Shown: in pieces, positions 8,255 through 14,458 of the stretch
How the letters are laid out: each line of letters starts with the position of its first letter
Numbering within the stretch: the first letter of the stretch is position 1
Source: a virus
DNA length: 28,732 nt
IMG/VR virus record: IMGVR_UViG_3300037493_001625
Coordinates: 1 to 28,732 of that record
Direction: 5' to 3' (one strand)
Position numbers and translations under genes: made by a program
Notes under the pieces: model-generated
What the model was told of the DNA's origin: nothing
What the model saw: the letters and a program-made list of their open reading frames with translations, nothing else
Database searches by the model: none

Positions 8255-8404
8255 ATGGCAACATCAAAAACATTTGAATGCAAATCATGTGAAACTGAAG
8301 GCAAAATAGTGATTATATCTAAAGATATAAGTTTAGAAGAAATTGTATATTGTCCAGTATGTGGAGCAGATATATTAGAAGAAGATACGGATGACTATTA
8401 TTAA
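8255..8404 (+). CDS. Small zinc-ribbon protein
   Basis: 49 residues. C9xxC12 (CKSC) and C33xxC36 (CPVC) with 20 residues between them form a zinc ribbon; the tail is acidic (EEDTDDYY). AAGGATAG upstream is a good ribosome binding site. Small FmdB-like or rubredoxin-like ribbons of this kind are common in T4-like phages, without known function. Its stop overlaps the start of the GIY-YIG gene. Confidence 0.6.
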   Translation: MATSKTFECKSCETEGKIVIISKDISLEEIVYCPVCGADILEEDTDDYY

Positions 8405-8847
8405 TGACTTGGTATTACAAGGATGTTGAGGTAACTGAGTTACCTGATAATTGTATAGGTTTTGTATATTTAATAACTTGTATACCTTCAGGTCGTAAAT
8501 ATATAGGTAAGAAATCAGCCAAGTTTTCAAAAACAAAAACAAAAACTGTTACTCTAAAGACTGGCGAAAAGAAAAAGAAGAAGATTAAATCAAAGGTAGA
8601 TTCAGATTGGCTAGATTATTATGGATCTAGTATTGAACTATCTTTGGATGTATCTACATTAGGTCAAGATAAATTCAAACGTGAAATACTATATTTCTGC
8701 TCATCAAAGGCATCATGTTCTTATTTGGAAGCAAAAGAACAAATGCTTCGTAATGTATTAGAATCAAATGATTATTATAATAATAATATAATGATTCGCG
8801 TGCATGGTAATCATATACGAGATAAAGTCCTTATTATTTCTCCCTAG
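8404..8847 (+). CDS. GIY-YIG-fold protein, Seg-like putative endonuclease
   Basis: 147 residues. GFVYLI at 19-24 and KYIGKK at 32-37 are the GIY and YIG halves of the GIY-YIG nuclease fold, followed by a Lys-rich insertion (50-65) and DWLDYYGSS (about 68-76), which is typical of a conserved GIY-YIG protein of T4-like phages. T4 relatives include the free-standing Seg homing endonucleases and I-TevI. This copy is short and lacks an obvious separate DNA-binding domain, so it could be a nuclease with a host or phage target rather than an active homing enzyme. A terminator overlaps its stop. Confidence 0.65.
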   Translation: MTWYYKDVEVTELPDNCIGFVYLITCIPSGRKYIGKKSAKFSKTKTKTVTLKTGEKKKKKIKSKVDSDWLDYYGSSIELSLDVSTLGQDKFKREILYFCSSKASCSYLEAKEQMLRNVLESNDYYNNNIMIRVHGNHIRDKVLIISP

Positions 8848-10226: not shown

Positions 10227-11381
10227 ATGGCTATTAAAACTAAAAAAATAGAGCGATCAGACTCTTTTGTTGAAAGTAAAAAAGCAAAAGCTGAAAAAAG
10301 ACGTGATAAGGTTAGAAGTATCGAAGCTAAGTTTAAAGGTGGAGATGAACCTTCTACAGATCCTTTCAATTATAAAATGTCACTAGTTCATGTAACTAAT
10401 TGGTATAATCTTAATATAGACTTTAAGCAAGCTAGAACATATATTCATGAATATCTTATCTCAACTGAAAGGAAGAAATTAGTCCCTACTATTAATAAAG
10501 CTTCTGATTCTGAAATAAGATCTCTCGGTGTTTTATGTCGTTTAAAACTTAGAGACGAATATCTCGAAGATGTACATTCAACTTATATTGAAGATACAAT
10601 TAAAAGGTTGATTGAGATTTACAGTTTAGTTAAAGAACCAGACCTTTTAATTACTACTAAAGTCGAACCTAAGATTAAAGTAGATAAAACCCATGAATTA
10701 GCAATTCAGTATTCTGAAGATATTGAAGGTGCTATCGATGATTTTGTAAAGAATAAGAAATCTGATTTTGATATTACAAGTTATTTAAAAGCACGTGAAA
10801 TCACCGGTCCTGTAGCTAAAGATATAGGTTCATATTATAATGAACTATTAAAAGAACTTGAAGAAGTAGAGACTGATTTAGATCTTCAAGAAGGATATAG
10901 TAATTTCACAAAAGCTCAATTAAAGAAGTTTATTACATTTGTTTCTTCTATAGTTAATGGTTGTAATCAACGAATAGTTTCAGCAAAGGTATCTAAACCT
11001 AGAGTTAAGAAACCTATACCTCTAAATAAAATTATTGAAAAGGTTAAGTATCTTAAAGAGTTTGGTGATCTTAAACTAAAATCTATTTCACCTACATCCT
11101 TAGTTGATAGTAATGAAATATGGACTTATAATACTAAGTACAGAAAACTTGCAGTATACAAAGCAGTTAAAGATACTAAATTGACTATTAAAGGTACAGC
11201 AATTCTTGGTTTTGATATAACTGAATCTATACAAATTATGCTTAGGAAACCTGAAGAGTTCTTTAATAATACTGCAATCGCAAAGAAAACTTTAAGTGCC
11301 GGTGTAAAAACAGTTAATGCAAAAACAGTAACACCAAATGGCAGGTTGAATGAAGACACAATATTATTAGGAGCATTCTGA
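10227..11381 (+). CDS. Conserved T4-like phage protein between dsbA-like and rnh genes, unknown function
   Basis: 384 residues. A basic N-terminus (KKAKAEKRRDKVR, residues 19-31) is followed by a helical middle and a C-terminal beta-rich part with IWTYNTKYRKLAVY (about 299-312) and LTIKGTAILGFD (about 319-331), ending GRLNEDTILLGAF. I recognise it as a conserved protein of T4-like cyanophages with the same C-terminal signatures and no known function. GGAG lies 7 bases before the start, and its stop overlaps the start of rnh, so it is co-translated with a replication enzyme. That position suggests DNA metabolism, but the sequence shows no enzyme motif. Confidence 0.65.
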   Translation: MAIKTKKIERSDSFVESKKAKAEKRRDKVRSIEAKFKGGDEPSTDPFNYKMSLVHVTNWYNLNIDFKQARTYIHEYLISTERKKLVPTINKASDSEIRSLGVLCRLKLRDEYLEDVHSTYIEDTIKRLIEIYSLVKEPDLLITTKVEPKIKVDKTHELAIQYSEDIEGAIDDFVKNKKSDFDITSYLKAREITGPVAKDIGSYYNELLKELEEVETDLDLQEGYSNFTKAQLKKFITFVSSIVNGCNQRIVSAKVSKPRVKKPIPLNKIIEKVKYLKEFGDLKLKSISPTSLVDSNEIWTYNTKYRKLAVYKAVKDTKLTIKGTAILGFDITESIQIMLRKPEEFFNNTAIAKKTLSAGVKTVNAKTVTPNGRLNEDTILLGAF

Positions 11382-12283
11382 TGATTATATTAGATTATTC
11401 ACAGATAGCAATGTCTGTTATAACAAACAGTGAATTCAAACCATTATTGGTTGGTGGTGATGAAACCCAAGTTAAGAATATTGTAAGACATGCTATATTG
11501 AATACTATATTGTCTTATAAAAATAAGTACAGTAAAGAATATGGCCAAGTAGTAATCGCAGCAGATGGTAGAAACTATTGGCGTAAAGAAGTATTTCCTT
11601 ATTATAAAGGAGATAGAAAGAAAAGCCGTGAAAAGTCTGACATGAACTGGAAACTAATATTTGATTGTATGACTAGTATCCGTGAGGATATTAAAGAATA
11701 TTTTCCATACAAAGTTATGCATATTGATAGAGCAGAAGCAGATGATATTATTGCAATACTATCTGAATGGTCTCAAACAAATGAACTAGCATCGACAGGT
11801 TTATTTGAGGAACCACAGAAAATAATGATTATTAGTTCTGATCATGACTTTTTACAATTACAAAAATGGGATAACATTTATCAATTCTCGCCTATAATTA
11901 AAAAACAGTTAAAGATGTCAAAGCGAGATCTTTATGAGAAGTATATCACCCATATTGTAAAGGCTTCTGATGACGGTATACCAAATATACTAAGTGATGA
12001 TTCTGCTATAGTCACAGAAGGTGTAAGACAAACCCCTGTTTCAGCAAAACGTCTTGCAGAATTTATAGAATTAGGAAAAGCGGCTTGTAAAAATGATACT
12101 GAAATCCGTAATTGGGATAGAAATGAACAATTGATATCATTTGAAAAGATTCCTGTTGATATAAAAGAAACTATTATAGATGAATATATAAAATGCAAAC
12201 CCAAAATGGATCGAATGCGAATAATGAATTATCTTATTCAAAATAGGTGCAAATTACTATTAGACAAAATTGAGGAATTTTAG
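11381..12283 (+). CDS. rnh: T4-type RNase H, FEN-family 5'-3' nuclease
   Basis: 300 residues, about the length of T4 RNase H (305). It removes RNA primers and adjacent DNA from lagging-strand fragments. Acidic metal-binding residues of the PIN/FEN fold are visible: D5 (ILDYSQ), D62 (AADGR), E119/D121/D122 (AEADDII), D154/D156 (SSDHDF) and D197/D198 (ASDDGIPN). The basic KGDRKKSR (77-84) is the bridge region that contacts DNA. The start overlaps the stop of the 384-residue gene, and the stop overlaps the GTG of the next gene. Confidence 0.9.
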   Translation: MIILDYSQIAMSVITNSEFKPLLVGGDETQVKNIVRHAILNTILSYKNKYSKEYGQVVIAADGRNYWRKEVFPYYKGDRKKSREKSDMNWKLIFDCMTSIREDIKEYFPYKVMHIDRAEADDIIAILSEWSQTNELASTGLFEEPQKIMIISSDHDFLQLQKWDNIYQFSPIIKKQLKMSKRDLYEKYITHIVKASDDGIPNILSDDSAIVTEGVRQTPVSAKRLAEFIELGKAACKNDTEIRNWDRNEQLISFEKIPVDIKETIIDEYIKCKPKMDRMRIMNYLIQNRCKLLLDKIEEF

Positions 12284-12756: not shown

Positions 12757-12781
12757 AAGATATAAAAAGTGAAAATAAATG

Positions 12782-12809
12782 TTTACTTTTTCTGAAAACT
12801 GTATATAAT
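12782..12809 (+). promoter_or_regulatory. Early promoter cassette
   Basis: -35 TTTACT (12782-12787), 16-base spacer, -10 TATAAT (12804-12809), followed by the shared leader CTCATAAATTAAATAAATG and GAGGAATTATATT before ATG 12844. It may also drive the tRNA region downstream, since no terminator is visible between them. Confidence 0.85.
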
Positions 12810-12843
12810 AGACTCATAAATTAAATAAATGAGGAATTATATT

Positions 12844-13098
12844 ATGAGAACAGAAAATTATGTTATGACTGTAGATCCTAAATCTACTGTTGAAATGGCT
12901 CAATTAGCTTCTATTAGAACCACAGTTAAAACTCTGAATAAGATTAATAAACAATCTTTTAGAGTATCGGTTAAAGGTAGATTAGGAAAGAATAATCCAG
13001 CAGCTGCTAAATATAAAAACACTAGTATTGTTACTATAGCTTTAGCAGATGCTGTTCGTTATGATGTATACATACATAGAAGATACACAACTAAATAA
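12844..13098 (+). CDS. Small conserved phage protein, unknown function
   Basis: 84 residues from ATG 12844, about 10 bases after GAGGA; the ATG at 12829 belongs to the promoter leader. The protein begins MRTENYVMTVDPKSTVEM and is basic towards the C-terminus (DVYIHRRYTTK). Similar small proteins with a TVDPKS segment and a C-terminal AFDVYV-type strand occur in T4-like phages. No membrane segment. Function unknown. The split tRNA begins 8 bases after the stop. Confidence 0.55.
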   Translation: MRTENYVMTVDPKSTVEMAQLASIRTTVKTLNKINKQSFRVSVKGRLGKNNPAAAKYKNTSIVTIALADAVRYDVYIHRRYTTK

Positions 13099-13106
13099 AG
13101 ATTTAA

Positions 13107-13131
13107 TCCTTGATAGCTCAGTGGTAGAGCG
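13107..13131 (+). tRNA. tRNA-Asn(GUU), 5' part of a split gene
   Basis: Acceptor strand TCCTTGA (13107-13113), TA, then a D arm GCTC-AGTGGTA-GAGC and G26. The acceptor strand is the exact complement of TCAAGGA at 13928-13934. Joined to 13888-13938 it gives a canonical 76-nt tRNA. After G26 the sequence (AATTTTTGAA) does not form an anticodon stem, so this fragment cannot function alone. Confidence 0.8.
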
Positions 13132-13143
13132 AATTTTTGAAAT

Positions 13144-13233
13144 GTATAAATAGATGTAGTTAGAGAAATGCTAGTAACATTTCTCAACTCGGCTACGGAT
13201 TAACCTAGCTGTCCTACACAAATCTATTTATAC
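13144..13233 (+). promoter_or_regulatory. Late promoter within a long translation-control hairpin
   Basis: GTATAAATAGAT (13144-13155) pairs perfectly over 12 bp with ATCTATTTATAC (13222-13233), which ends next to GGGTG, the likely ribosome binding site of the endonuclease gene. The left arm contains TATAAATA (13145-13152), the T4 late promoter octamer. Inside are GTAG/CTAC and two hairpins, GAGAAATG/CATTTCTC (13163-13185) and CGGCTA/TAGCTG (13190-13211), making a three-way junction. A transcript begun at the late promoter would lack the left arm. Confidence 0.55.
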
Positions 13234-13243
13234 GGGTGTCAAA

Positions 13244-13855
13244 ATGCAACATTGTAAATTTTGCGACAAAGAATGTAAAAATGATAATTCATTAAGAAAT
13301 CATCAAAGGTTATGTCCTAAAAATGATGATAGAGTATATGTTAATGGTATGACTGGTAAGAAAGGAGGAAACCAGTATACAAAAGCAGAGAAATTAGGAT
13401 TACCTAAACCTATAATTTCACTTGAAACAAGTAAAAAACTTAGCGATTCTGTATTATCTCGTTCGAAAAACTGGCAAGAAATAAACGGTAAAAAGATTAG
13501 CAAAACTGTAAATGAAAAAGTTGCTAATGGTGAATGGCATACTTCTTTAGCAAAACATATGCATATAGATTACAATGGTGTTGATATGCATGGAAATTGG
13601 GAATTACAATATGCTATAGATTTGGACTCTAAAAATATAAAATGGATTAAATGTAAAGAAAGTTTTGGATATATATTTGAAGGAAAACCTAGACGATATA
13701 CACCAGATTTTTATTTAATTGAGACTGATGAATATATAGAAATAAAAGGTTATAAAACAGAAAAAGATGACGTTAAATGGTCTCAATTTCCAAAAGATAA
13801 AGTTCTAAAAGTGTTAATGAAAAATGAATTAACACTTTTAGGGATAAAATTATAG
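13244..13855 (+). CDS. PD-(D/E)XK homing-type endonuclease with N-terminal zinc finger
   Basis: 203 residues. An N-terminal zinc finger has C4xxC7 and H20xxxC24. Then comes GMTGKKGGNQYTKAEKLG (35-52), a basic motif common in phage homing endonucleases. The C-terminal domain has E120 (GNWE), P154-D155 (RYTPDFYL) and E166-I-K168 (YIEIKGY), the PD-(D/E)XK nuclease triad. The family includes I-Ssp6803I, which is encoded in a cyanobacterial tRNA-fMet intron; the tRNA location here is parallel. It lies inside the split tRNA-Asn. The ribosome binding site is weak (GGGTG, 5 bases) and next to the arm of a 12-bp hairpin, so expression is probably held back until late infection. Confidence 0.75.
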   Translation: MQHCKFCDKECKNDNSLRNHQRLCPKNDDRVYVNGMTGKKGGNQYTKAEKLGLPKPIISLETSKKLSDSVLSRSKNWQEINGKKISKTVNEKVANGEWHTSLAKHMHIDYNGVDMHGNWELQYAIDLDSKNIKWIKCKESFGYIFEGKPRRYTPDFYLIETDEYIEIKGYKTEKDDVKWSQFPKDKVLKVLMKNELTLLGIKL

Positions 13856-13887
13856 TTTATTCCCTCTTAGCGATCATGGTGAATGCG

Positions 13888-13938
13888 CTCCGCTGTTAAC
13901 GGAGAATGAGGTTGGTTCGAGCCCATCTCAAGGAGCCA
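13888..13938 (+). tRNA. tRNA-Asn(GUU), 3' part of a split gene
   Basis: Anticodon stem CTCCG/CGGAG (13888-13892, 13900-13904) with loop CTGTTAA, anticodon GTT. Then variable AATGAG, T arm GTTGG-TTCGAGC-CCATC with one T-T mismatch, acceptor strand TCAAGGA, discriminator G and encoded CCA (13936-13938). The acceptor strand pairs 7 of 7 with the fragment at 13107 but only 4 of 7 with TCCCTCT at 13861-13867 immediately upstream. Confidence 0.85.
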
Positions 13939-13943
13939 ATTTT

Positions 13944-14017
13944 GCGGGATTAGTTTAATGGTAAAACTGGAGTTTTCCAAACTTCTGTCATCAGTTCGAT
14001 TCTGATATCCCGCTCCA
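13944..14017 (+). tRNA. tRNA-Gly(UCC)
   Basis: 74 nt with acceptor GCGGGAT/ATCCCGC, D arm GTTT/AAAC, anticodon loop TTTCCAA (anticodon TCC), T loop TTCGATT and encoded CCA. The following AATT resembles the AATTTT spacers between the other tRNAs. Confidence 0.93.
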
Positions 14018-14117
14018 AATTAATCGTTTGTGAAGTTTTTAAACGAAAGTAAAACACTACAGTCTGGCATGGGACTGATAATTGGTGGGGTAAGAGTCCT
14101 TAAATATGTCCCTAATT
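14018..14117 (+). ncRNA. Structured 100-nt unit A of a tandem pair
   Basis: Closed by AATTA/TAATT (14018-14022, 14113-14117). Inside: hairpin TCGTTT/AAACGA (14024-14046); helix CACTA/TGGTG (14055-14059, 14083-14087) stacked on CAGTC/GACTG (14060-14077) with loop TGGCATGG and a one-sided ATAAT bulge; then GGGTAAGAGTCC (14088-14099), whose GGG can pair with CCC before the closing strand. It is homologous to unit B, and stem differences keep pairing. It is not a tRNA: no anticodon arm of 7-nt loop, no CCA. Confidence 0.6.
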
Positions 14118-14123
14118 AAAAAG

Positions 14124-14223
14124 AATTAATCGGAGTAATTACCCGAAAAGTAAGGCACCACAAGCGTTGGCACATCGCTTGATAAAATGGTGGGGTAAGA
14201 GTCCCTGACCTGTGTCTCTAATT
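14124..14223 (+). ncRNA. Structured 100-nt unit B of a tandem pair
   Basis: Same length and plan as unit A: closing AATTA/TAATT (14124-14128, 14219-14223), hairpin TCGG/CCGA (14130-14146), helix CACCA/TGGTG (14156-14160, 14188-14192) on CAAGCG/CGCTTG (14161-14181) with loop TTGGCACAT and bulge ATAAAA, then the identical GGGTAAGAGTCC (14193-14204). The stems have changed on both strands compared with unit A, while loop TGGCA, bulge and 3' core are kept. Confidence 0.6.
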
Positions 14224-14228
14224 TTAAT

Positions 14229-14307
14229 AAAACACATTAGATAGACCTACTGAGTCGAGTCTAACTGCTGGAGCCAGAAATGGGGTATCGTAAGGCTAGT
14301 GTGTTTT
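14229..14307 (+). ncRNA. Structured 79-nt element closed by a 12-bp helix
   Basis: AAAACACATTAG (14229-14240) pairs with CTAGTGTGTTTT (14296-14307), 12 pairs with a single U.G. The interior has TAGAC/GTCTA (14242-14246, 14259-14263) and a small CTG/CAG hairpin (14268-14277). It has tRNA-like length but no tRNA arms or CCA. Confidence 0.5.
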
Positions 14308-14310
14308 CTT

Positions 14311-14374
14311 AAATGTATTTGTAATTGATTAGGTTACCTATGGAGATAGTTCCTAATTACGTATAAGTACATTT
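14311..14374 (+). ncRNA. 64-nt long hairpin before tRNA-Thr
   Basis: Two 23-base arms, 14311-14333 and 14352-14374, pair over nearly their whole length: AAATGTA/TACATTT and ATTAGG/CCTAAT at the ends, with two G.U pairs and a short internal loop between. The tip carries CTAT-GGAG-ATAG (14338-14349). No T-run follows, so it is not a standard terminator. It could be a processing signal or a small RNA. Confidence 0.5.
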
Positions 14375-14383
14375 AAATAGTTT

Positions 14384-14458
14384 GCTCCCTAAGCATAAGT
14401 GGCGATGCAGTTGACTTGTAATCATCATAAATCGGTTCGATTCCGGTAGGGAGCTCCA
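14384..14458 (+). tRNA. tRNA-Thr(UGU)
   Basis: 75 nt, acceptor GCTCCCT/AGGGAGC, D arm GCAT/ATGC, anticodon loop CTTGTAA (anticodon TGT), T loop TTCGATT, encoded CCA. The anticodon stem GTTGA/TCATC has one T-T mismatch. Confidence 0.9.

Follow-up and report, generated by a model that had tools for sequence, protein, structure and literature searches.

The window, i.e., the whole 28.7-kb stretch of DNA analysed here, is a virus record with T4-like genes (RNase H, DUF6433, and ribonucleotide reductase). The locus considered is flanked by an 89-aa ORF on one side and by a tRNA cluster on the other, and between them lie, in this order, a tRNA 5' half, a structured leader, a 203-aa endonuclease ORF, and a tRNA-Asn. 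An earlier note on this DNA had joined positions 13107–13131 and 13888–13938 into a tRNA-Asn(GUU) that is interrupted by an insertion at 13132–13887. Both parts are present in the sequence and their join, which falls at tRNA position 26/27 and is ambiguous by three bases, is accepted by ARAGORN. The joined tRNA had been called canonical, and this holds for the acceptor stem (7/7), the D-stem (4/4), and the anticodon stem (5/5) but not for the T-stem, where a U.U mismatch leaves 4/5 pairs. Similarly, the presumed insertion does carry the 203-aa ORF (13244–13855), but its last part, 13861–13887, is the 5' end of a second tRNA that had been overlooked. A complete tRNA-Asn is called by ARAGORN at 13861–13938, directly after the endonuclease. 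As 13861–13887 is itself a tRNA 5' portion, the locus holds two 5' portions and one 3' portion and, judged by its sequence, is an old 5' fragment followed by an endonuclease gene and then by a chimeric tRNA.

The origin of the three tRNA segments, all on the plus strand, can be traced in related loci. The 5' end stranded upstream (13107–13131, tRNA positions 1–25) is identical at 25/25 positions to the intact tRNA-Asn of locus L027, taken here as the resident type. Exact copies of its first 23 nt are present in 10 viral loci, in nine of which (9/10) they start an intact tRNA-Asn(GTT), and the 5' half is beyond what would be expected to occur by chance. The tRNA-Asn(GUU) downstream of the endonuclease (13861–13938) agrees at 45/53 positions of its first 53 nt with the tRNA-Asn of a sister locus, L001, and its last 25 nt agree at 24/25 positions with L027 and at 17/25 with L001. 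In L001 the endonuclease is 75% identical to that of the window (tblastn), and a complete tRNA-Asn with a window-like unusual D-arm starts 5 nt after its ORF. Because the window tRNA is donor-type from 13861 to about 13912 and L027-like from about 13916 onward, it is read as a donor/resident chimera, the resident 3' end (13916–13938) comprising the T-loop, the 3' acceptor strand, and the CCA. We infer an inserted element at 13132–13912 (plus strand) made up of the leader, the endonuclease gene, and the donor tRNA-Asn 5' portion, with borders ambiguous by a few bases: similarity to L001 starts at 13135, and resident (L027-type) identity stops at 13131 and resumes at about 13916. Both outer pieces match one resident tRNA, which bears out the view that an endonuclease-bearing element interrupts a real tRNA-Asn gene. 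A search for the uninterrupted gene in relatives had been proposed, and it was found in L027, L028, L029, and L035. The sister loci L008, L013, and L017 have an ordinary intact tRNA-Asn at the corresponding place, without an endonuclease.

Donor-type tRNA-Asn was found in 15 loci, and the 14 complete copies all have an acceptor stem of 7/7 and a T-stem of 5/5, vs. 4/7 and 4/5 in the window. The idea that this tRNA always travels with the endonuclease was rejected, most of its 15 loci being without an adjoining endonuclease gene. Among the viral contigs scanned no exact donor of the window was found, and an exact scan of viral contigs for the 22-nt 3' end of the window gave no match. The tRNA at 13861–13938 scores 21.7 bits in Rfam relative to a cut-off of 29; this was not taken to show that the tRNA is defunct, as the intact tRNA-Asn of L001 is also below the threshold.

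Further features were observed elsewhere in the window. A stretch of about 76 nt (12772–12847), upstream of the 89-aa gene, recurs at about 80–87% identity in several positions of sister loci and resembles a dispersed repeat that perhaps bears a promoter. Within the tRNA cluster, a structured intergenic stretch (14018–14384, z -2.9) contains the 16-nt word GGTGGGGTAAGAGTCC twice; among 105 loci, 16 have one to three copies of it, overlapping stretches of the window and L001/L002 being counted. No Rfam match at threshold was obtained for 14018–14384, which is possibly an unknown RNA. A second homing endonuclease candidate, a SegE-type GIY-YIG gene (Pfam PF19835, 4.5e-31), is located at 8404–8847, downstream of the gene for the large subunit of ribonucleotide reductase.

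Leader hairpin and endonuclease

The leader hairpin (13144–13233, plus strand) has a 12-bp closing stem and a fold z of -5.1 (-6.0 in sister L001). Within it lies the box TATAAATA (13145–13152), which is T4 late-promoter-like. Six leaders were folded, and five of them (window, L001, L003, Citrobacter phage CkP1, and Acinetobacter phage AB-Navy97) gave stable hairpins, with z from -4.1 to -7.2 and a late-promoter-like AT-rich box within or beside them; the L004 leader folds weakly (z -1.3). The possibility that 13144–13233 is a ribozyme or the remnant of an intron was considered and set aside for a late-promoter hairpin, since the sequences of the relatives differ while the layout is the same. 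A similar layout of hairpin and late promoter is described for segB, mobE, and the I-Tev enzymes (excerpt of PMC2988022).

The protein encoded at 13244–13855 (plus strand, 203 aa) is a predicted PD-(D/E)XK nuclease that is T7-endonuclease-I-like and has a zinc-finger-like N-terminus. Cys4, Cys7, His20, and Cys24 of the latter are common to 18 relatives, and across 18 sequences E120, P154-D155, and K168 are invariant and E166 is present in at least 90%. The family profile matches T7 endonuclease I (structures 1m0d and 1fzr, E 4.8e-9), and the window protein itself matches PHROG endonuclease families. An AlphaFold model (pLDDT 79) gave weak Foldseek matches, the best of them (E 7.5e-3) to Bax1 nucleases. 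No Pfam match to a GIY-YIG domain was found in the 203-aa protein. Relatives are present in viral contigs and in 38 of 50,697 phage records. A search of the genomes of bacteria and archaea gave 78 candidate stretches, none of which was confirmed as a relative. One family member, in Aeromonas phage AsFcp_4 (L051, 2004–2057), has its ORF interrupted by an early stop, and the copy in AsFcp_1 is open.

tRNA genes at related loci

Halves of tRNA genes recur upstream of the endonuclease in many family members, among them those of unrelated phages. A detector scoring acceptor spacing, D-stem, and D-loop, with called tRNAs masked and a top score of 18, was run on 27 endonuclease loci, several of them near-duplicates. 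A top-scoring 5' half was present within 150 nt upstream of the ORF in 15/27 loci vs. 6/2700 control windows, which were drawn from the same loci and some of which may contain relics themselves. One of the 15, L047, reaches the score of 18 as an entire tRNA whose anticodon arm is damaged, and leaving it out gives 14/27. A binomial value for these counts was set aside because it takes related loci to be independent. This masked run supersedes an earlier one (26 loci, 1040 controls). The 12/27 loci without a top-scoring half include L068 and L070, entered as non-hits because they are masked by an intact tRNA and by a called tRNA-Met, respectively. By eye, an imperfect or truncated 5' half is seen in L003, L049, L051, L060, L052, L061, L062, and L067, and no trustworthy upstream 5' half in L001, L050, and L070; in L068 the intact tRNA occupies this place. 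At the other end of the gene, the endonuclease stop codon lies inside the downstream tRNA gene in L048, L049, L052, L054, L061, L065, L067, L068, and L071, with overlaps of 10 to 38 nt, the stop often falling at the conserved U8-A9-G10 or in the anticodon loop. It could be argued that the endonuclease gene landed between unrelated tRNA remnants without any targeting of tRNA, in a tRNA-rich place that is merely tolerant, as phage tRNA clusters tolerate insertions and SegB-type genes are also common near tRNAs (excerpt of PMC13096335). This is unlikely given the excess of 5' halves directly upstream of the ORF, the match of both outer window pieces to one resident tRNA, and two empty sites, described below, that show a single tRNA gene cleanly cut.

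In one kind of locus, here class II, a 5' relic lies upstream and a complete carried tRNA downstream. In L004 a tRNA-Asn 5' half precedes the ORF and a complete tRNA-Asn starts 4 nt after it; the 31-nt relic is found in 11 loci, i.e., in nine intact tRNA-Asn genes, in L004 itself, and in one cut contig. Kuttervirus Se_EM4 and Agtrevirus SW16-7 share an 803-nt cassette of ORF and whole tRNA-Met that is identical at 781/803 positions (97%). It lies inside different resident tRNA-Met alleles, which are intact in JN03 and SKML-39, respectively, and positions 1–26 and the 3' terminus of the resident tRNA-Met are retained. The upstream flanks of the two phages are similar and the next 150 nt downstream align poorly (66/138). 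We read this as movement of the endonuclease together with the tRNA from one genus to another, with the same gene as target. In 4/4 identifiable cases (the window, the L004 group, Kuttervirus, and Agtrevirus), the last two of which share one cassette, the anticodon of the relic is also that of the carried tRNA. In class II relatives the acceptor stem of the complete downstream tRNA is unlike that of the upstream 5' half, so that the parts cannot be joined.

The other kind, class I, is a clean split in which no replacement tRNA is carried, and comprises CkP1, the Aeromonas and Acinetobacter phages, and L042, a damaged example. In CkP1 the CAT anticodon of a tRNA-Met is interrupted by an insert of 669 bp, and the joined halves are found verbatim in Enterobacter phage KMB20. 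In AB-Navy97 the insert is 666 bp long and splits a tRNA-Met for which phage MD-2021a (OV298649) has the intact counterpart; the TAA of the tRNA anticodon loop here serves as the endonuclease stop codon. AsFcp_4 and AsFcp_1 are of the same clean-split kind. Sister phages thus differ in presence or absence of the gene, as is typical of free-standing phage homing endonucleases, and empty sites are seen in the pairs CkP1/KMB20, AB-Navy97/MD-2021a, Se_EM4/JN03, and SW16-7/SKML-39.

Class I loci are the natural ground for the view that the interrupted tRNA is functional and that its halves are rejoined as RNA, by an intron of unknown type, trans-pairing, or phage RNA repair. The insertions of CkP1, the Aeromonas phages, and the Acinetobacter phage sit in the anticodon loop, the joined CkP1 halves reproduce the tRNA of a sister phage, ARAGORN accepts the joined AsFcp halves, and in the window joining restores a 7/7 acceptor stem. 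Furthermore, the halves of AsFcp_1 and AsFcp_4 differ at 3/78 sites, beside an insert that differs in 168/693 columns. The DNA upstream of the AsFcp insertion is, however, also conserved, with 24 mismatches over 702 columns, so that selection on the halves in particular need not be assumed; of the three tRNA changes, two fall on G1-C72 and on the terminal CCA. The absence of a group I or II core, claimed earlier, was confirmed in that no Rfam intron reached threshold in the window; none was found in 13000–14450 with E up to 5, and none at the gathering threshold in 10 related loci. In the window the U.U mismatch in the T-stem, which stems from the crossover at the donor/resident boundary, persists in the joined molecule and therefore speaks against selection on a joined product. 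The RNA-level routes suggested in the earlier note (processing, trans-pairing, or splicing) thus gain no support: the insertion brings its own tRNA 5' part, the joined window tRNA is mismatched, and class II halves cannot pair. For these reasons homing at the DNA level is preferred, and rejoining of RNA is considered very unlikely. T4-type Pnkp and RNA ligase 1 are phage tRNA repair enzymes, and it may be speculated that class I halves are cut free and sealed by such enzymes, i.e., that they are protein-spliced, endonuclease-bearing tRNA introns ancestral to the carried-tRNA form of the window; this too is given little credence.

A locus outside the family has a comparable appearance. In L030 (about 11100–12150, minus strand) an unrelated ORF, HNH-like by eye, comes after the same 24-nt tRNA-Asn 5' half. 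Adjoining tRNA-like sequences look interrupted or rearranged, and ARAGORN finds no tRNA in L030. The ORF is possibly a second endonuclease family entering tRNA genes.

Probable homing into tRNA genes

The reading we favor, with a probability of about 0.86, is that a resident tRNA-Asn gene received a copy of a homing endonuclease gene that is free-standing and linked to a diverged tRNA-Asn gene of its own. The enzyme would cut the resident gene between the D-arm and the anticodon, both the cleavage and its site being predictions, and the donor tRNA would resist the cut. The break would then be repaired from the donor, whereby the endonuclease gene and either the 5' portion of the donor tRNA or the whole of it would be copied in, and the 5' end of the recipient tRNA would stay upstream as a fragment. 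A right-hand crossover within the T-arm would give the chimeric tRNA of the window; elsewhere the full-length tRNA would be donor or chimera. Unlike an intron that splices out, the element would supply a replacement for the gene it breaks, the carried tRNA presumably being functional. A crossover inside a tRNA has a cost that protein genes escape: as the ends of a tRNA must pair, it leaves a mismatched acceptor stem. The replacement tRNA is probably impaired in the window copy, because its two acceptor strands stem from different alleles, and 'rescue' may have failed here given the poor pairing of the chimera. That assembly instead fused two tRNA-Asn loci of different metagenome phages is hardly credible: the window is a metagenome virus record and the two tRNA types do share short words at the right-hand crossover, but these are only about ten bases long, there are none at the left junction, and isolated phages, e.g., Se_EM4 and PhaxI, have the same architecture.

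Homing endonucleases usually spare their target by residing in an intron or intein or by a position between genes. The present family seems to enter phage tRNA genes directly, and several lineages carry a replacement tRNA. If this is true, the element would parallel, in nature, an engineered home-and-rescue drive. It would also account for the tRNA gene fragments in phage genomes and would offer tRNA genes a route from phage to phage. Phage tRNAs counter tRNA-cutting defences (excerpt of PMC13096335), and a gene that breaks and replaces phage tRNAs would therefore bear on that contest. The pairs of phages with empty and filled sites are ready for tests of this proposal.

Relation to known systems

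Parts of this arrangement have counterparts elsewhere. The likeness to T7 endonuclease I is one of nuclease domain sequence (the profile match given above), and T7 endonuclease I is a Holliday-junction enzyme without a zinc-finger part. I-Ssp6803I is a PD-(D/E)XK homing endonuclease encoded in a self-splicing group I intron of a bacterial tRNA gene; the window element resembles it in the type of enzyme and in having a tRNA gene as target and differs in that an intron core is absent. In open-licence literature on homing endonucleases and tRNA genes, on split, interrupted, or pseudo-tRNAs, and on SegB, the insertion pattern is not described in titles and abstract openings. Interruption of phage genes by homing endonucleases is noted in an excerpt of PMC10448857, which makes no mention of interrupted tRNA genes.

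The SegB gene of T4 and T6 is, like the window gene, free-standing, located in a phage tRNA cluster, and preceded by a predicted late promoter and a leader hairpin (excerpt of PMC2988022). SegB cuts within tRNA genes, and the tRNA region moves along with it (excerpt of PMC13096335). It is, however, a GIY-YIG enzyme whose gene is inserted between tRNA-Arg and tRNA-Ile (excerpt of PMC2988022), whereas the family described here is PD-(D/E)XK and appears inside tRNA genes, leaving 5' halves behind.

A close parallel in layout is the WHO elements of the yeasts Torulaspora and Lachancea, which home into FBA1 so that the WHO gene lies between a chimeric full-length FBA1 and the old 3' fragment of the recipient (excerpt of PMC7282813). 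The window shows the same layout: its endonuclease gene has a full-length, chimeric target on one side and, on the other, what is left of the old end of the recipient. The two are also alike in that homing exchanges one end of the target (predicted for the window), no splicing is involved, and a zinc finger is fused to a nuclease (PMC7282813). The window element is nevertheless the mirror image, as it is the 5' and not the 3' end of the target that is replaced, and the target is a phage tRNA gene. WHO genes are intein-zinc finger fusions (excerpt of PMC7282813), and the window enzyme is of the PD-(D/E)XK type, with cleavage here a prediction. As PD-(D/E)XK takes the place of the intein-zinc finger fusion, the window element would resemble WHO elements in how it works without belonging to them.
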